Source: Herbiconiux sp. VKM Ac-1786 (GTDB lineage: Bacteria; Actinomycetota; Actinomycetes; Actinomycetales; Microbacteriaceae). From it: a stretch of 64,000 bases of DNA. This document shows, one piece after another, positions 36,378 to 44,038 of this stretch. Location: positions 248,001 to 312,000 of the forward strand of contig NZ_JADKSG010000001.1 in the NCBI RefSeq assembly GCF_015350805.1. The letters are read 5' to 3'. The position numbers and the translations under genes were made by a program. Within the stretch, counting starts at the first letter, position 1. The number at the start of each line of letters is the position of its first letter. The notes under the pieces were generated by a model. That model searched no databases. It saw only the letters and a list, made by a program, of their open reading frames with translations, and had not been told where the DNA came from.

Positions 36378-36511
36378 GCCGCAACCGTACCCACATACCT
36401 CCGCTGCCTTCAGACGCGTCCTGTATTGCGCCTCGACGGCCCCAGGATGACGCATGAACACTTTGGCCCTAGGCTGATCTGCTGCTCGATCGCGAACTGG
36501 GAGGTGAAGTC

Positions 36512-37231
36512 GTGCAGACCATCGTCACCGCGGAGTACGGCTCGCGCGCCATCGGCGTCGCGACTGAAGACTCCGACCACGACCTCATGAGCGTCTTCGT
36601 CGAAGCCCCCGAGTACATCCTCGGCATCGAGACGATCGACACCGAGGCATCCTCCACCGCACCCGCCGGCAGCCGTTCCACCCGCGAAGACACCGATACC
36701 ACGCGATACCCGCTGCGGAAATGGTCCCAGCTCGCCGCCATCGGCAACCCCACTGTGCTGTCGCTGCTGTTCCTAGACCCCATCGAGAGCACCGAGCACT
36801 GGAAGCTCTTGAGAAGCATTCGGGATGCATTCATCTCACGCGAGGCCGGCCGGCGATTCCGGGGCTACTCGCTGGGACAGCGGCAGGCGATCGTGGGGGC
36901 GCGCAACAAGCGCACCAACAGGCCTGAGCTGATCCACAAGCACGGCTACGACACCAAGTTCGCCTATCACATGGTCCGCACCGCGATGCAGGGCATCGAG
37001 CTCATGACCACCGGCGCACTACGCCTCCCCATGGCGCCGAGCGACCTCGAGATTCTCCGCTCGATCCGCGCTGGATCCATCACCAAAGACGCCGTTCTCG
37101 CCCTCGCTTCTGAACTCGACGACAACCTCGCGGTCGCCATCGAGCGCACCGAGGCCAACGATCAGCCAGACCGGAGACTCATCAACTACACCCTTCGCCG
37201 CATCTACCTCGACTCGTGGGGCTCCCGATGA
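36512..37231 (+). CDS. RlaP-type nucleotidyltransferase (DNA polymerase beta superfamily, COG3541)
   Basis: 239 residues from GTG 36512 (GGAGGTGAAGT ribosome site). The N-terminus has the minimal nucleotidyltransferase motif: Gly10-Ser11, ten residues, Asp22-x-Asp24 in GSRAIGVATEDSDHD. The helical C-terminal half contains YDTKFAYHMVRTAMQGIELMTTG, conserved in PF10127. That family was named RlaP because it neighbours RNA ligases in predicted RNA repair operons. Here the stop overlaps the start of a Pnkp-like phosphatase (ATGA). No RNA ligase is seen in the window. Reaction not established; nucleotide addition at a damaged RNA end is inferred. Confidence 0.8.
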   Translation: MQTIVTAEYGSRAIGVATEDSDHDLMSVFVEAPEYILGIETIDTEASSTAPAGSRSTREDTDTTRYPLRKWSQLAAIGNPTVLSLLFLDPIESTEHWKLLRSIRDAFISREAGRRFRGYSLGQRQAIVGARNKRTNRPELIHKHGYDTKFAYHMVRTAMQGIELMTTGALRLPMAPSDLEILRSIRAGSITKDAVLALASELDDNLAVAIERTEANDQPDRRLINYTLRRIYLDSWGSR

Positions 37232-37719
37232 ACCCCGCGGTCATCGTGGACGTCGACGGCACCCTCGCTGACGTGTCGGGCATCCGCCACTACGTCCTCG
37301 ACAACCCGCACAAGAAGCTCTTCGCCAAGTTCCATGGGGCATCGGCACTCGTGCCCCCGATCGCCGAGGTCGCTGCCGTCACTCGAGCGCTCCACTCGGC
37401 CGGCCTCACGATCGTCGTCCTCACCTCCCGCCGCGAGCAGTGGCGGCACATCACCCGCCGCTGGCTCGCAAAGTGGGAGATTCCCTTCCACGCGCTCGGC
37501 ATGCGGGCCGACCACGACAACCGCCGCGACGACGACGTGAAGCGCGACCTGCTCAGCCAAATGCGGCACCTGTACGACGTCGACCCCGTCCTTGCGATCG
37601 ACGACAATCCCACCGTCATCGCCCTCTGGCGCTCCCTCGACATCCCCACCGTGCGCGTCCCCGGCTGGGACGAGCAACCGACCACTGCCATGCCACTGGG
37701 CCCCAATCACCGACGATAG
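37228..37719 (+). CDS. T4-Pnkp-like polynucleotide 3'-phosphatase (HAD superfamily)
   Basis: 163 residues, matching only the phosphatase domain of T4 polynucleotide kinase-phosphatase. Motif I VDVDGTLAD (Asp8, Asp10), motif II VVLTSR (Thr66/Ser67), TRRWLAK, then DNRRDDDVKRDLL with the catalytic Lys105, and motif III AIDDNPTVIALW (Asp125, Asp126). No kinase P-loop is fused. It would remove 3'-phosphate or 2',3'-cyclic phosphate from RNA or DNA ends. Translationally coupled to the RlaP-type gene. Confidence 0.85.
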   Translation: MNPAVIVDVDGTLADVSGIRHYVLDNPHKKLFAKFHGASALVPPIAEVAAVTRALHSAGLTIVVLTSRREQWRHITRRWLAKWEIPFHALGMRADHDNRRDDDVKRDLLSQMRHLYDVDPVLAIDDNPTVIALWRSLDIPTVRVPGWDEQPTTAMPLGPNHRR

Positions 37720-37735: not shown

Positions 37736-37939
37736 ATGGCTGCGGATGAGATCGACTACGAGGCCTTGGCAGCCCGGCTCACTGACCCCGAAGTTGAGAC
37801 GGTAGCCCAGCGGGAACTGTATGGCGAAGAGGCGGCCGCTCATGGCCGGGCCCTCCTGCTGCGGGAGTACGGCTCCGAGGAAGCACTCAAGGCATCGTTG
37901 CGACCAGGCAGGCCCAAACTCAGCATCAGAAAGCCGTGA
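37736..37939 (+). CDS. truncated antitoxin-like protein
   Basis: 67 residues, AAAGGAGAG ribosome site. EIDYEALAARLTDPEV, AAAHGRALLLREYGSEEAL and GRPKLS resemble the N-terminal part of CopG-type antitoxins that normally continue into a ribbon-helix-helix domain, which is missing here. Starts 16 bp after the phosphatase, so may be co-transcribed. In the next frames after the stop no complete toxin can be found. Could be a remnant or a distinct small protein. Confidence 0.5.
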   Translation: MAADEIDYEALAARLTDPEVETVAQRELYGEEAAAHGRALLLREYGSEEALKASLRPGRPKLSIRKP

Positions 37940-38142: not shown

Positions 38143-38382
38143 TCAGGGCAGCAAGTCGAACATCTGCGGTCGAGCCTTCATCGAGTGGATGATGAGCTCG
38201 TTCCCACTGTCGAACCGCAGCACCACGAGTTCCAGCAATCGACCGCCGGTATCGAATCCGAGACGGAGCTGGCGGGCGGGACTGTCATCATCGAGGTCCT
38301 CGACCCACAACGGCCACGTCGCGGCCTGGATCGAATCATCAGGGTCCACACCATGCTTCAACGCGGAGGGATGAACTTTCAT
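38143..38382 (-). CDS. putative toxin (BrnT/RelE-like small protein)
   Basis: 79 residues: HPSALKHGVDPDDSI, RQLRLGFDTGGRLLELVVLRFDSG and NELIIHSMKARPQMFDLLP. The LGFDTxGRLLELVV...IHSMKARP pattern is a recurrent actinobacterial toxin-like family paired with ribbon-helix-helix antitoxins. The ATG overlaps the antitoxin stop (ATGA). An RNase activity is inferred from fold similarity only. Confidence 0.65.
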   Translation of the reverse strand: MKVHPSALKHGVDPDDSIQAATWPLWVEDLDDDSPARQLRLGFDTGGRLLELVVLRFDSGNELIIHSMKARPQMFDLLP

Positions 38383-38642
38383 GCGGCCGACGCGGCCAGA
38401 GCCTCACGAACCACTTCAGACCGGGACTTCTGCTCGCGTGCAGCGCGTTCGTCGATCTCGGCGAGTTCCTCAGCGGTGAGTCGTATGGCAACGACCTGAG
38501 TGGGCTCCGCGCCGCGCCCTGGACGCCCGCGACCGCGCTTCTTAAGCGACTTCACGTCATATCCCGTCTCAGCCTCGGCTGCCCAGGCTTGGATCTGCTC
38601 CTCCGTGACAGGAACACCGTCGATCGTCTCTCGCTCATCCAT
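38379..38642 (-). CDS. ribbon-helix-helix antitoxin
   Basis: 87 residues. The C-terminal half TQVVAIRLTAEELAEIDERAAREQKSRSEVVREALAA is a clear RHH domain (beta strand plus two helices); the N-terminal half is an acidic/basic linker containing KKRGRGRPGRG. TACGAT lies seven bases before the ATG, with no ribosome site, so the mRNA is probably leaderless. A TCGTA-A-TACGA dyad covers the -10. Confidence 0.8.
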   Translation of the reverse strand: MDERETIDGVPVTEEQIQAWAAEAETGYDVKSLKKRGRGRPGRGAEPTQVVAIRLTAEELAEIDERAAREQKSRSEVVREALAASAA

Positions 38643-38650
38643 ATTCTTTA

Positions 38651-38661
38651 TCGTAATACGA
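38651..38661. promoter_or_regulatory. antitoxin operator over the -10 element
   Basis: TCGTA-A-TACGA perfect dyad overlapping TACGAT (minus strand 38655-38650), the -10 of the RHH antitoxin gene. Classic layout for autorepression. Confidence 0.55.
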
Positions 38662-38869
38662 AATCCGCACCCGCGACAGCGCCGAGCGCCCGGGAAAAAC
38701 CTCTGCCTTGGCGTGGCGCTCGAAGTTCGCCGTTTCGAATCGATCGCAGTAAAGCTGATGAGCATGCCGCCGACTCTATGTGCGCGACACCTGACGATGG
38801 CAGCCCCGAGCGCGGCACAGGGAGAGACTCGCCGACACACTTCCGCCCAAGCCCATCTTGAACAAGCGA

Positions 38870-40246
38870 TTACATGCCGTCGGATTCCGTCTGGGCCTCG
38901 GTTTCCTTGGATACTGCCTTTTTGTCTACCCGTCGCCTGAAGAGCGACCCGAGCGCATCGTTGACGTTCGACGCTGCGCCCTTGACGGCAGCTCCAGCGT
39001 TCTCGGCCGCTACTGCAGCCCTGGCTTTATCCGGCACTCCATCGCCATCGGTGTCGACCGAACGGAACACACCGGATGCTCGGTCGAAGGTCTCGGCGCC
39101 GAAGCGTCCAGCGGCGGTGACGCCTCCGGATGCCGTGGAGACCGCCTTGTCTCTCACATCACCAACGGCCTGACCCCAGCGCTTTGCGACCTTCGATTCA
39201 TGGCCAGACTCGATTCCCAACCGCTGGCGAAAATCGTGCACGCCCGTTGCAAGTTGGTTGCTCGACTTCACAGCGGCAGGGGCATCAAACGGGTTGAGAA
39301 GCACAGCGGAATTCGCTCGATGAACGGTCTCATTCATCTGAGTGAGAAGGCGTGCCGTACTGCGGGCGATGAGCTCGACACGATTCCGACGAGCCTTGGC
39401 CAAACCAACTCGATGGCTTTCCAGATCCGACGGCGCAGAGTCGAGCACTCGATCGAGTTCGAGGATGAAGACCCCATCCTGCAGCTGGACCGTGCGCGCC
39501 AAGACAGCAATCCACTCCTGAACCTTCGGCTCGGCGTCTTTAGTCGCCTTCGCGATGTCTCCGAGATCAGCCTTCTTCTCGAGCTTCTCTGCAATGGCAT
39601 CAAGTTGACGAAGCGCGTACGCCTGGGTTCGTGCGAGCGTCATGCCGCTCGCCTGAACCTTCGACCAGGTGATCTCAGACACTCGCCCAACCTGGTCTCG
39701 CACGGTGAGGGCTTCTTCGATGATCAAGTCCACGCCGATCATGTCTGCCAACACGGCGTCTCTCTGCCCGCGCAAGATGTCATCGACCTTCTCGTTGATC
39801 TCCTGCAGGTACTCGACGATCTCATCCATCTGCTCCTGCATCGCGCGCTGCTGCATCATGGTGGACAGCGCCGTCAGGGCGAATGGTCCACTCAGCAAGA
39901 GCGTCGGAGCTTGTGCTATCTGAAGCCACTGCTTGATGTCGCCCGCATCTCCGATCATGGCGTGACTGACACCAGGGGTCTTCGTTGGCATCAACCCGAA
40001 CTTCTTGACAGCCTCTGCCGACTCGGCCGTCAGCTTCACCCACCGTCCTGAATTCGCCGCGATATCTGCACCCACCTGAACCACTGCCGCGCCCGTCCCG
40101 GAGAGAGACCAAAGCCGGTGGAGATCTACTGGCCGTGACGGAACGGTCTCCAGTCCAGCCGAAAGGAAGAACCGCTCGACATCGGAGGGTGAGCCGATAG
40201 CCACGAGGCCGTCGCCGTCACTCACAAGCTCGACTTCGCCGCTCAT
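38870..40246 (-). CDS. hypothetical coiled-coil protein of the accessory region
   Basis: 458 residues from ATG 40246 (AGGAG ribosome site). Residues 1-110 are a mixed alpha/beta domain. A hydrophobic segment at about 113-131 is followed by a coiled coil (QQRAMQEQMDEIVEYLQEINEKVDDILRGQRD, about 132-163) and a long helical region to about 330. The tail has a calcium-loop-like DTDGDGVPDKARAAV and an Ala-rich basic end. No known family is recognised. It is third in line on the minus strand behind the 5'-nucleotidase and RmuC-like genes, with a 335-bp gap before it. Confidence 0.7.
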   Translation of the reverse strand: MSGEVELVSDGDGLVAIGSPSDVERFFLSAGLETVPSRPVDLHRLWSLSGTGAAVVQVGADIAANSGRWVKLTAESAEAVKKFGLMPTKTPGVSHAMIGDAGDIKQWLQIAQAPTLLLSGPFALTALSTMMQQRAMQEQMDEIVEYLQEINEKVDDILRGQRDAVLADMIGVDLIIEEALTVRDQVGRVSEITWSKVQASGMTLARTQAYALRQLDAIAEKLEKKADLGDIAKATKDAEPKVQEWIAVLARTVQLQDGVFILELDRVLDSAPSDLESHRVGLAKARRNRVELIARSTARLLTQMNETVHRANSAVLLNPFDAPAAVKSSNQLATGVHDFRQRLGIESGHESKVAKRWGQAVGDVRDKAVSTASGGVTAAGRFGAETFDRASGVFRSVDTDGDGVPDKARAAVAAENAGAAVKGAASNVNDALGSLFRRRVDKKAVSKETEAQTESDGM

Positions 40247-40581
40247 CGTCACTCCTGTCGCAAATGAGCGCTCTGGGTGAATCAGCTTGATCCGCGCGTC
40301 TCGCTGCACTCTACTGTGACCCGAACGCCGTCAACGGGCTAGGCAATGTTGTTACCCGAACATCGCATTCCTGGCGGCCCACCAACGAACAACGGGGTGC
40401 ACGAGCCGCCTTCGTGATCCCGCTCCTCCTCACCGGCGCTGACACGCACCGGGCTACGGATCGCCAAGTTGAGCTAACCGCTACGAACGCGGAAGAGCAG
40501 AAGCGTCATCCGCCGCACCGACTACAACGGCCCCCCAAGACGTTACCGCGGCAAGACGGAGGGGTTGTCTCATCCGCGTTG
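40247..40581. other. 335-bp non-coding gap
   Basis: No supported gene on either strand. Only a weak stem ATGTT/AACAT (near 40349-40366) and imperfect GC pairing are visible; no convincing terminator, tRNA or repeat. Confidence 0.5.
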
Positions 40582-42303
40582 CTAGCTCGCACCGTTTGAA
40601 ATGTGGGCAGTTTCGTCCGCATGCGCGCCGAGGAACTCGACTATTTCGTCATCAGCTACGACTTCGTTGGCGCCTTCCTCAAGTACCCCTGGTGCTCCGG
40701 ATTCAACGTCGCGAAGCCTTCTCTCGACCGCGCGAGTGCGTGTGCTGACTTCGGTCACGGTGTTTTGAGCGGTTTGAAGCTGCTTACCCAGCTTCTCCCA
40801 AACCTTCCCGTACTTTGTAAATTCAACTTTCGCTGCGCTTAAGACTTGCCAAACCTCTGAGCTTCGCTTCTCAATGGCCAGCGTCCGGAAGCCCATCTGA
40901 AGACTGTTTAGAAGTGCCATCAACGTCGTTGGGCCAGTAATGAGCACCCGATGGTCATTCTGTAGTCGGCTAGCAAGTCCTGGCTGACGCAGCACCTCGG
41001 CGAAGAGCCCTTCGGTCGGAAGGTAAAGAATGGCAAAGTCTGTTGTCGTGGGCGGATTGATGTACTTATCTGCGATCGACTTGGCCTGGACCACGATCGC
41101 TCGTTCCAGTCCTTTACTGGCAGCATCGATATCGGCTTTGTCGCCCTTTTCCTGCGCCTGGAGGAGTCGCTCACAGTCTTCCTGAGGAAGCTTCGAGTCG
41201 ATGGGAAGGTAGACGGTAGAGTCCTGATCTCGTCCGGGAAGGTGGATGGCGAACTCCACGCTCTCCCTCGTCGATGGCTTCACGACAACATTTCTTTCGT
41301 ATTGTTCTACGGTCAGCGAGTCTTCAAGCTGTCGAGACAACTGCACCTCGCCCCACGTGCCTCGGCTCTTTACGTTGGTAAGCACTCTCTTGAGACCACC
41401 GACGTCTGACGCGAGACCCTGCATCTCGCCGAGACCCTTCTGGACCTGCTCTAGGCGTTCGCTGACGAGCGCAAAAGACTCGCCAAGCCGCTTTTCAAGA
41501 GTTCCCTGGAGCTTTTCATCAACCGTCTCGCGCATCTTCTCAAGCTTCGCCTCGTTGCCAGTGCGCATTTTTTCGAGTTCAGCTTGGAGCGCGGAGCGCA
41601 ACTCCTGATGCTTCGTCGAATTGGATTCGATGAGAGCCTTGATTCTCTCAGCGTTGCCTTGCAGAGATTCCGAGTTGGCGGACTGAAGCCTCTCGATCGA
41701 TTCACGAACTTGCTCCAGTTTCAGTTCGTTGCCGTTTCGTAGCTTTTCAAGCTCGGCACGAACTGAAGACTGAAGGTTGATGTGGTTGATCGCGTTGGCA
41801 TCACCAAGGACCTTTATCTGATCGGTGCTGCCTTGAAGCGCAAAAGAGTTAGAAGACTCAAGCTTCTCGATGGCCTCGCGGATCTTCTCTAACCGCTCAT
41901 TGTTAGCCGAGCGAAGCCCGTCAAATGTCTCCACAATCTCAAGTCTGAGCCGGGCGCTGGTCGCCTCTGCTCCCAACGCTTGCGCTTGCAGTTTTTCGTT
42001 CACTTTTCGGACTTCAGCGCCAAGCAGGTTCAGCTGGTCCGCTTGCGCCGTGACGGCATGCTGCATGCGAGTGTCGAGCTGATGATGCCCTTGTGAAGTT
42101 ACCTCGCGCAGCTCGCCCCTTTGCGTGGTCAAATCTTGGCGGAGGTCTCCCGCCATAGTGCGAAGTTCACCCCGCACCACATCTTGAAGCGCGAAAGTGG
42201 ATTCGGCCGGGCTGCCCTTTCGACCGCGGAAGGAGAGCAACGCGAGCAGCACGAGGCAGACTATGAGATTCCCCGCGATGAGTATGAGGACAAGAACTTC
42301 CAT
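40582..42303 (-). CDS. rmuC: RmuC-family DNA recombination protein with internal coiled-coil repeats
   Basis: 573 residues from ATG 42303 (GGAAGG upstream). An N-terminal membrane anchor (2-24) precedes a long coiled coil. Residues 131-188 and 189-246 are gapless 58-residue repeats (RSANNERLEKIREAIEKLES versus RNGNELKLEQVRESIERLQS), with a partial third copy from 247. The RmuC nuclease-like core follows: RGTWGEVQLSRQLED, DSKLPQEDCERLLQ, FAILYLPTEGLFAEVL and LITGPTTLMALLNSL. RmuC limits inverted-repeat rearrangements and has been linked to phage restriction. The repeats are unusual. Base composition is much lower in GC than the flanking chromosome. Confidence 0.88.
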   Translation of the reverse strand: MEVLVLILIAGNLIVCLVLLALLSFRGRKGSPAESTFALQDVVRGELRTMAGDLRQDLTTQRGELREVTSQGHHQLDTRMQHAVTAQADQLNLLGAEVRKVNEKLQAQALGAEATSARLRLEIVETFDGLRSANNERLEKIREAIEKLESSNSFALQGSTDQIKVLGDANAINHINLQSSVRAELEKLRNGNELKLEQVRESIERLQSANSESLQGNAERIKALIESNSTKHQELRSALQAELEKMRTGNEAKLEKMRETVDEKLQGTLEKRLGESFALVSERLEQVQKGLGEMQGLASDVGGLKRVLTNVKSRGTWGEVQLSRQLEDSLTVEQYERNVVVKPSTRESVEFAIHLPGRDQDSTVYLPIDSKLPQEDCERLLQAQEKGDKADIDAASKGLERAIVVQAKSIADKYINPPTTTDFAILYLPTEGLFAEVLRQPGLASRLQNDHRVLITGPTTLMALLNSLQMGFRTLAIEKRSSEVWQVLSAAKVEFTKYGKVWEKLGKQLQTAQNTVTEVSTRTRAVERRLRDVESGAPGVLEEGANEVVADDEIVEFLGAHADETAHISNGAS

Positions 42304-42416
42304 TTCAACCTTCCACATGCTGCAAATCGGTCGACCACTCAAGAAAGTGAATCGCCGCATCGAGGGGAACCGCACTAGGACCTCAGCGAGGGGTGCCGCG
42401 CGTGATATCCGTATCG

Positions 42417-43403
42417 CTAGTCGCGGACTGATTGATCGCCAGCGCCCAATTGCTCCTCACCAACCGGAGCGGTGGTCCTCTCATTCTTGATTCCGAATGG
42501 AACGTGAACGCTTGGCACCACTTTGGCGGCCGAAAGGAGGTGACCCTCCTGATCATCGAAGAATATGTGGGGTTTCAAGACCTTCAGAATCTCGGCCTTT
42601 TCAACGCCGCCAAGGAAGAAAGCGTCGTTGACGGTAACGCCCCACTTCTTGAGGCTCCGGATTGCCCGTTCATGAGAAGGGGCATTTCGTGCGGTAACAA
42701 GAGCCACATGCACGCGAATCCGGTAGTCGGGGTTCTCCTTTAGGAGCGCTTCCTCTCGACGCTGAATACGGTTGATGCCCTGCAATAGGTTCATCAGCGG
42801 CCCGGTTGGCAGCGGTTCATCGATGTGCTCGACTTCATGCTCATGAAACGCGACCAGACCGTTGCTCGTCATGAAGCGCTCCGATGAGTCATCGGCCAAT
42901 ACGCCATCGAAGTCGAATGCAATTCGGAGGTCGTCACCATTTTCCGACGCCGTCGACGTGTCGAGCACTTGGCCCGCCGGAAGATTCTCATCCACAGCTC
43001 TTCGCACATCGTCACCATCTGCCGACAGAAATAGCGACATGTTGAACGCGGGCATGAACTTATGCGGAGAACGCCCCTGCCGGAAGACCGCACGAGTGAT
43101 CGCCAGCCCGTGATGTGCAACTGATCGCATGACTCGGAGACCCGTGTCTGGGTCATTCTTCGAGAGAATTACCACTTCCACGAATGGCTCTTCACCGACA
43201 CCGGCGAGGTCGTTGAGCGAGAGCAAGCGCCGAATGAATGGGAAGGCTACGCCCGGTTCAAGAGCATCCGCGATGTGCGCTTCTTGATACTTCCGGTACG
43301 ACTCTTCACCCTGAGTTCGAAACACTTTGTCCGACGCTCTCAGGTCGAACAAGGCGCTTGACGCTACCCCGATCACCAGCTGATTCGATAGGTCGTGTGG
43401 CAC
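42417..43403 (-). CDS. cytosolic 5'-nucleotidase (PF06189-type)
   Basis: 328 residues from GTG 43403. The haloacid-dehalogenase motif IAFDFDGVLADDSSE is central, preceded by FVEVVILSKNDPDTGLRV and followed by HVALVTARNAPSHERAIRSLKKWG and HIFFDDQEGHL, the arrangement of the NT5C1-like 5'-nucleotidase family. It should dephosphorylate nucleoside monophosphates. 113 bp upstream of the RmuC-like gene on the same strand, so likely co-transcribed. In an accessory region such an enzyme could act in nucleotide depletion. Confidence 0.85.
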   Translation of the reverse strand: MPHDLSNQLVIGVASSALFDLRASDKVFRTQGEESYRKYQEAHIADALEPGVAFPFIRRLLSLNDLAGVGEEPFVEVVILSKNDPDTGLRVMRSVAHHGLAITRAVFRQGRSPHKFMPAFNMSLFLSADGDDVRRAVDENLPAGQVLDTSTASENGDDLRIAFDFDGVLADDSSERFMTSNGLVAFHEHEVEHIDEPLPTGPLMNLLQGINRIQRREEALLKENPDYRIRVHVALVTARNAPSHERAIRSLKKWGVTVNDAFFLGGVEKAEILKVLKPHIFFDDQEGHLLSAAKVVPSVHVPFGIKNERTTAPVGEEQLGAGDQSVRD

Positions 43404-43843
43404 CCCAACACCCTCGTTTCGATTCGGATCAAACTGAAGACCGTTACGAGACTACGGTGACAGATGTAGATCAGTATTTGCTCAGGTAAGACGCAAGATT
43501 TGCGCACGTCGCCGCCGCAGTAGTGTTCACCTTTCGATAACTAGAACGGCAGCAGCAGAGGCCGAGGCAGCTGCGGACGGCCGCAGAGCTGACTCCGATA
43601 ACGGCGATCGTGTCGAGAGCGCTCTCGACACGAGCCGCCGTGGCAAGGGTGAATCCATGACCCGGCGTCCTACGCGGACGAGCTGCGTGCATCCGCTGGA
43701 CTCTCACCATGCACCAGCTCGACCCTGCCGTTGCGACGACGCTTTCAGCCGGGGGCCCGACTCGCTCGACTCGTCTCGGGTCGTGGCTGGTCGAGTTCGC
43801 CCTCGCCGTGCGGCTGTGTGCGGGACGCCACCTACACCTCCGA
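43404..43843. other. 440-bp gap with palindromes
   Basis: No gene is supported; open frames here lack codon bias. It contains a 26-bp perfect palindrome (43608-43633) and a stem CTGCGG-ACGG-CCGCAG (43571-43586). Confidence 0.5.
43608..43633. repeat. 26-bp perfect palindrome
   Basis: TCGTGTCGAGAGC followed directly by its reverse complement, no spacer. Too long and perfect for chance. Could be a binding site for a dimeric protein, a recombination site or a terminator between the 5'-nucleotidase promoter region and the RHH gene. Confidence 0.75.
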
Positions 43844-44038
43844 TCAGGCGGAACCCATGAAGTCTTGACGCCCAGTTCCATGCGTCGAGTCAGTCCCACC
43901 CTGGACGTAGCGAGTAAGCGCGTCACGGACGACGTCACTGACCGTTCGCCCCTCATCTGCGGCCTTTGCCTGCGCGGCTTCGTAGAGATCAGTTGGAATG
44001 CGAAACCCTCGCTTGGGTGTCTTGGGCTGATTCGGCAC
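43844..44038 (-). CDS. ribbon-helix-helix protein (orphan antitoxin-like)
   Basis: 64 residues from GTG 44038. KRGFRIPTDLYEAAQAKAADEGRTVSDVVRDALTRYV is a complete RHH domain followed by a short polar tail. No toxin gene is adjacent. It is divergent from another small RHH-like gene at 44119 with an operator between them. Confidence 0.72.
   Translation of the reverse strand: MPNQPKTPKRGFRIPTDLYEAAQAKAADEGRTVSDVVRDALTRYVQGGTDSTHGTGRQDFMGSA

Follow-up and report, generated by a model that had tools for sequence, protein, structure and literature searches.

The question raised by this locus is how RNA ends might be repaired by a nucleotidyltransferase and a phosphatase that are encoded together, with neither a kinase nor a ligase in the same unit. 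The locus lies in a 64,000-nucleotide stretch of Herbiconiux sp. VKM Ac-1786 (contig NZ_JADKSG010000001.1, positions 248,001 to 312,000), which was analysed as a whole and is called the window below. Two plus-strand genes, at 36512-37231 and 37228-37719, encode an RlaP-family nucleotidyltransferase and a Pnkp-type 3'-phosphatase, and the sequence confirms the coordinates and the ATGA overlap that a first-pass annotation had reported for them. We propose, with moderate confidence, that the two genes form a phage-derived two-enzyme cassette in which a 3'-phosphate would be removed and nucleotides would then be added at the RNA 3' end. The features on which this proposal rests are as follows.

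36500..36504, + strand: GGAGG ribosome-binding site, 7 nucleotides 5' of the GTG start (read directly)
36512..37231, + strand: RlaP-family (PF10127) nucleotidyltransferase of Pol-beta fold, 239 amino acids, GTG start, stop TGA at 37229-37231, catalytic residues D22, D24 and D62 (profile, alignment and folded model)
37228..37231, + strand: four-nucleotide ATGA common to the stop of the first gene and the start of the second, whose ATG is at 37228 (sequence)
37228..37719, + strand: stand-alone Pnkp-type 3'-phosphatase (HAD_PNKP, PF25109), 163 amino acids, without kinase; D8, D10, R68, D101, K105 and D126 (profile and alignment)

Two enzymes with intact active sites

The first-pass annotation had given gene 1 the GS-x10-DxD motif and PF10127 layout, had given gene 2 all motifs of the T4 Pnkp phosphatase domain without a kinase, and had suggested profile searches of both proteins. 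Both pass the Pfam cut-offs of these families: gene 1 matches RlaP (PF10127) at E 2.2e-25 with 90.2 bits (cut-off 23), and gene 2 matches HAD_PNKP (PF25109) at E 2.6e-21 with 76.7 bits (cut-off 27.6). The PHROGs agree with Pfam, placing gene 1 in phrog_388 ('nucleotidyltransferase', 8e-56) and gene 2 in phrog_415 ('polynucleotide kinase', 3.1e-44). We claim RlaP membership for gene 1 from the profile and not from a ligase neighbourhood. The motif is made up of G10, S11, D22 and D24, with D62 as the third carboxylate; in an alignment of 35 rows no change is seen at S11, D22 or D24, G10 and D62 are each kept in 34 rows, and K149, H153 and R156, which lie in a C-terminal half that is helical in the folded model, are present in all 35. 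A structure model was folded because the protein had no convincing match by sequence in the PDB (best E 1.1).

In the phosphatase, the residues D8, D10, R68, D101, K105 and D126 are kept in 16 of 16 aligned sequences, one row with a stop codon (L182) having been left out of the alignment. Its profile retrieved Pnkp proteins only from the PDB, namely Pnkp1 (4xrp), the best match, and T4 Pnkp (5uj0, 1ltq), at E 6.5e-12 to 2.8e-10, and the following rows stood at E >= 0.36. No kinase domain was found in the gene 2 protein, in which only PF25109 passes its Pfam cut-off and four other listed models fall below their own; at 163 amino acids the protein has no room for one. A housekeeping HAD identity was rejected, HAD_PNKP alone lying over its cut-off. 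The active sites of both proteins are thus intact, and the window's whole genome holds one match to each of the two families at E <= 0.001.

Conservation of the pair within the genus

The pair is open and overlapping in five chromosomes of the genus, those of the window's genome, G015, G008, G005 and G009, and also on the phage contig L001; the G005 pair is the same as that of Herbiconiux ginsengi L025, and the G009 pair the same as that of L026. The overlap is found at the same place throughout, as ATGA in the window, G015 and L025 and as GTGA in G008, L001, L026 and the viral contig L185. Over aligned codons, the two members of the pair are 81% and 85% identical to those of the window in G015, 51% and 70% in G008, and 70% and 86% in L001. 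A simple Nei-Gojobori estimate of the ratio of nonsynonymous to synonymous substitution rates (dN/dS) between the window and G015 gave 0.26 for RlaP and 0.18 for the phosphatase, so the pair is under purifying selection. Neither of the two findings that the first-pass annotation had named as fatal to its reading, a pair that is not conserved and a phosphatase among housekeeping HADs, was obtained.

Conservation in actinobacteria nevertheless holds narrowly. Phosphatase matches at E <= 0.001 were found in 10 of 16 genus genomes and were close (E <= 4.4e-39) in seven; five of these seven have the open pair. In G011 the phosphatase belongs to a prophage that lacks RlaP, and in G002 it is reduced to a fragment (residues 88-163), with no RlaP in the stretch read. 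The genome G012 retains RlaP residues 1-112 and has no phosphatase match. Of 299 genomes of the family, five have RlaP and 13 have the phosphatase. G040 and G104, of other genera, carry the phosphatase without RlaP. At the level of the class, RlaP matches were present in 103 of 394 genomes, from which we selected 40 loci for inspection, two of them from one genome; a phosphatase or an RNA ligase lay within 6 kb in one locus (L399), the ligases being sought with three models. In 30 RlaP loci from named genomes, a phosphatase was present in two (the pairs) and a ligase in two. The neighbourhood survey that the first-pass annotation had called for therefore bears out conservation in the genus and recurrence in L185, and does not extend to a broad actinobacterial pairing or ligase association. 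Many class genomes also hold two RlaP-like matches side by side, the second covering the N-terminal half of the model only (for example G519 C9 331651-332693 and G602 C9 261589-262699).

A second pairing on a distant RlaP branch

On the viral contig L185, another RlaP (Pfam E 7.4e-24) and a stand-alone phosphatase share a GTGA overlap. We built a quick tree of 48 RlaPs, midpoint-rooted and without bootstraps, in which the six paired proteins of the window, G015, G008, G005, G009 and L001 form one clade with a Shimodaira-Hasegawa-like approximate likelihood-ratio test (SH-aLRT) value of 99. This clade lies within a nine-row group (SH-aLRT 98), to which phage Big4 and a pair of viral contigs add the remaining three rows. 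The RlaP of L185 belongs to a branch distant from that of the window, where it groups with L399 and L204 (SH-aLRT 100, L204 being on a long branch); both of these carry a Rnl1-like ligase together with a Pnkp that is about 300 amino acids long and has a P-loop N-terminus.

Since the L185 phosphatase is nearer to that of the window (46% identity) than to the phosphatase part of the L204 Pnkp (33%), each of the two RlaP branches is coupled to the stand-alone type of phosphatase. Because the L185 RlaP is only distantly related and its own relatives are accompanied by ligases, the pairing would most simply have arisen by two events; a single ancient pairing followed by many losses is a less simple alternative. 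The occurrence of the same overlap on two RlaP branches is the strongest sign that a 3'-phosphatase is the partner that RlaP needs.

Phage relatives of the two genes

The cassette is most likely of phage origin, and its transfer would have run from phage to chromosome. Relatives of RlaP occur in 475 of 50,697 phage records and relatives of the phosphatase in 1932, the best places all lying below 60% identity. On L001 the pair is located behind two large genes; read by eye from the sequence, one resembles a helicase/methyltransferase and the other a DNA methyltransferase. Synteny links L001 with the G011 prophage (L093), in which 6 of the 17 genes called on L001 have a match, the first of them at 92%. 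The slot that corresponds to the L001 pair (L093 6844-9722, on C18) holds RtcB, followed 1.2 kb further along by the phosphatase, and lacks RlaP. Gene calls for the phage and locus comparisons (L001, L093, L399 and the viral loci) come from our own crude caller. Besides the RtcB of the prophage, G011 carries another on C70.

Five annotated phages with RlaP were viewed (Big4, I3, Azula, RB49 and DirkDirk), and in the stretches covered the model found a phosphatase only in I3, where about 6 kb separate it from RlaP once the ends are joined. RlaP accompanies the phosphatase in three of 28 viral phosphatase loci, counting the L001 contig, and RtcB does so in none of the 28. In phage Big4 (L056 8888-11013), the 3 kb after RlaP contain genes with the annotations phosphoesterase, metallophosphoesterase and phosphatase, none of which match the Pnkp-phosphatase model. 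Six actinophages with stand-alone phosphatases were viewed: I3 (gp268), Anaya (gp87) and four others with neither RlaP nor a ligase-model match in view. The Anaya gene (L333, NC_042031, 10471-12223) is annotated as hypothetical and encodes a stand-alone Pnkp-type phosphatase directly upstream of the RtcB gene gp88; that RtcB counters tRNA cleavage is put forward as speculation in the Cluster K paper (PMC3203893). The Herbiconiux pair also suggests a partner for those actinophage genes that are called 'polynucleotide kinase' but have no kinase.

A model of 3'-end healing and refilling

We propose that RNA is the substrate of the cassette and that cleavage by a nuclease is its biological trigger. 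The Pnkp-type HAD phosphatase would act first, removing the 3'-phosphate left by metal-independent RNases, and perhaps also opening a 2',3'-cyclic phosphate, to leave a 3'-hydroxyl. RlaP, which by the chemistry of its Pol-beta superfamily would need a free hydroxyl, would then add one or a few nucleotides and so replace those lost to the nuclease. The four-nucleotide overlap would let both proteins be made together. With no kinase and no ligase in the unit, the product in the host would be a refilled 3' terminus for which sealing is not required, or one that is sealed by a ligase outside the three families searched.

Such refilling has a precedent in prediction, RlaP being expected to restore lost nucleotides ahead of ligation (PMC7824862). 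A lesion that would need it exists: RloC excises the wobble nucleotide, and according to its authors this damage could resist repair by phages (PMC2610378). It is conceivable, although we hold this as a tentative idea and doubt it more than we believe it, that the phosphatase and nucleotidyltransferase carry out ligase-independent RNA repair, healing and refilling 3' termini without sealing them, and that phages carried the unit into a host that retained it and in whose genome no ligase of the main known families was found. With the same reserve, tRNA acceptor ends and the toxin-trimmed 3' end of 16S rRNA may serve as examples of its targets.

The refilling predicted for RlaP (PMC7824862) can be tested with very few components in this unit, which is reduced to RlaP and the 3'-phosphatase and lies in a genome without matches to three ligase families. 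Protection of a ligase-free cell by the pair would mean that RNA can be repaired without being rejoined; otherwise another ligase is to be sought.

RNA ligases and other explanations

The explanation that survives best next to healing and refilling by the cassette is classical ligase-dependent tRNA repair, in which the pair would be the 3' half of the pathway and the ligase and 5' kinase would come from the host or from a co-infecting or resident phage; we judge this unlikely. The proximity of RlaP to RNA ligases, on which the first-pass annotation had drawn, is borne out in phages. An RNA ligase accompanies RlaP in 13 of 80 viral loci (seven RNLX, that is PF09414-like, two Rnl1-like and four RtcB, one of the last, L126, being partial at the end of its stretch) and a phosphatase in seven, or eight with looser filters; these are the best 80 of 107 loci, with up to 8 kb on each side. 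None of 80 control loci, chosen by an arbitrary 16-base pattern and covering less DNA (0.73 against 1.24 Mb), has an RNA ligase or a phosphatase. The 13 loci are not 13 events, because the sample includes near relatives, among them several phages of one cluster. All three functions come together in L129 and L204 (Rnl1, Pnkp and RlaP) and in L134, L136, L141, L142 and L147 (RNLX, Pnkp and RlaP), and in an actinobacterial chromosome L399 (G519 C14, 4796-7584) is a contiguous operon of Rnl1-like ligase, RlaP and full-length Pnkp. RtcB lies immediately beside RlaP in the viral contigs L122 (7875-9956) and L130 (6761-8732), an adjacency that is chemically odd because RtcB wants a 3'-phosphate and RlaP a 3'-hydroxyl.

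Potential ligases are also available in the genus, where RtcB occurs in 11 of 16 genomes, RNA_ligase PF09414 in five at E <= 0.001 (two over cut-off) and RNA_lig_T4_1 PF09511 in none. Among the other chromosomes with the pair, RtcB is complete in G005, G008 and G015 and a fragment at a contig end in G009. In the window's genome, at 99.9% completeness, searches for RtcB, PF09414 and PF09511, the only three ligase families covered, gave no match; as a control, PF09511 matched the four virus records with a Rnl1-like gene and not the three other records, and it had no match in control genomes. Likewise, the three ligase models built for the locus comparisons match neither of the pair-carrying phage contigs, L001 and L185 (48.9 kb and 55.2 kb, in seven pieces), nor anything near the pair in L025, L026 or the window. 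The first-pass annotation had supposed that the unit borrows a ligase from elsewhere, and this is unsupported because the genome matches none of the three families. The RtcB of relatives would hardly help, since it joins 3'-phosphate or 2',3'-cyclic phosphate ends (PMC7824862), and the phosphatase would destroy these; according to the same paper, ATP-grasp ligases need a 5'-phosphate and a 3'-hydroxyl, so the 3'-phosphatase would make ends for ligases of that kind.

It is improbable that the pair makes or edits a short DNA or RNA oligonucleotide, as HalB of the Hailong system does, in a signalling or guard system. Any resemblance to HalB would lie in the fold, and such similarity is in part common to other Pol-beta enzymes. 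The direct neighbours of RlaP are the HAD phosphatase on one side and a chorismate mutase on the other, with no membrane effector beside it, and some RlaP relatives adjoin RNA ligases and Pnkp, as described above. PADLOC gave one match for RlaP, at E 0.037, and none for the phosphatase; known defence families were rejected for the pair, for which they gave weak matches only.

Somewhat less credible again is modification of a protein or small molecule by a nucleotidyltransferase of the MNT antitoxin or aminoglycoside nucleotidyltransferase type, with the HAD acting on a related phosphate. The 90.2 bits for RlaP compare with 14.5 and 12.9 for the next nucleotidyltransferase models, the partner is not HEPN, and some relatives have ligase and Pnkp neighbours. 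A type VII MNT-HEPN toxin-antitoxin system was rejected, since the partner is HAD_PNKP and the MntA model reaches 12.9 bits against a cut-off of 60. Least credible of all is a stranded phage relic without present function, which would suit the patchy distribution and the fragments in G012 and G002 but not the five open pairs and their purifying selection.

Surroundings in the window

The first-pass annotation had placed the pair in an accessory region rich in toxin-antitoxin genes. The proportion of G and C (GC), taken in bins of 2 kb, is 0.57-0.65 between 36 and 46 kb and 0.65-0.74 elsewhere. The richness in toxin-antitoxin genes is weak: of 11 proteins scanned, two ribbon-helix-helix proteins (38379-38840 and 43844-44038, both - strand) are antitoxin-like and over their Pfam cut-offs. 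A BrnT toxin at 38143-38382 was not accepted (E 0.18). The low-GC stretch 38143-44038 also holds RmuC (40582-42375, - strand) and a PF06189 5'-nucleotidase (42417-43403, - strand). The pair lies 0.45 kb from a hydrolase gene in the window, and the corresponding distance is about 13-18 kb for the pair or fragment in G012, G002 and G015. Because the genes that flank the pair map to scattered places across the genus, no clean empty site was obtained. One further open reading frame follows the pair.

37736..37939, + strand: open reading frame of 67 amino acids, 16 nucleotides downstream of the phosphatase gene, with an AGGAG site and no Pfam family (sequence and Pfam scan)

Its two homologues (L097 5821-6021 and 6621-6818) lie beside the G002 phosphatase fragment, and since they were found only there among the stretches compared, we do not count this frame as a member of the pair.

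Comparison with known systems

Gene 1 resembles the RlaP family in its profile score, in the GS..DxD motif with a third carboxylate and in its helical C-terminal half, and differs in that the window locus has no RNA ligase, nor has the genome one of the three families searched. In gene 2, TSR 66-68, RDDxxK 100-105 and DD 125-126 align with the SGR, KDDxxK and DD motifs of the T4 Pnkp phosphatase domain, from which it differs in standing alone without the kinase domain. T4 Pnkp R176, which we take to be catalytic, aligns one column off R20 of gene 2, a position that is R in 10 of 16 relatives. The similarity to HalB of Hailong amounts to 14-17% identity with RlaP, the partner and neighbours being different.

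Ligase-type RNA repair operons, such as the tight Rnl1-RlaP-Pnkp operon of L399 and the RNLX, Pnkp and RlaP loci of L136 and its kin, have the RlaP and phosphatase families in common with the window unit, which lacks their ligase and kinase. The Pnkp1-Rnl-Hen1 complex (4xrp; PMC4411300) includes a Pnkp1 phosphatase, to which gene 2 has its best match in the PDB; the complex has a ligase and Hen1, and the part of its description available to us names no RlaP. Our literature search, which did not cover the paper that established RlaP (Burroughs and Aravind 2016), found no published description of an RlaP-phosphatase pair and no biochemical test of RlaP. Both families and the predicted repair pathway are known, and what appears to be new is the reduced, overlapping pair, its presence in a genome without matches to three ligase families, and its occurrence on two branches of RlaP.
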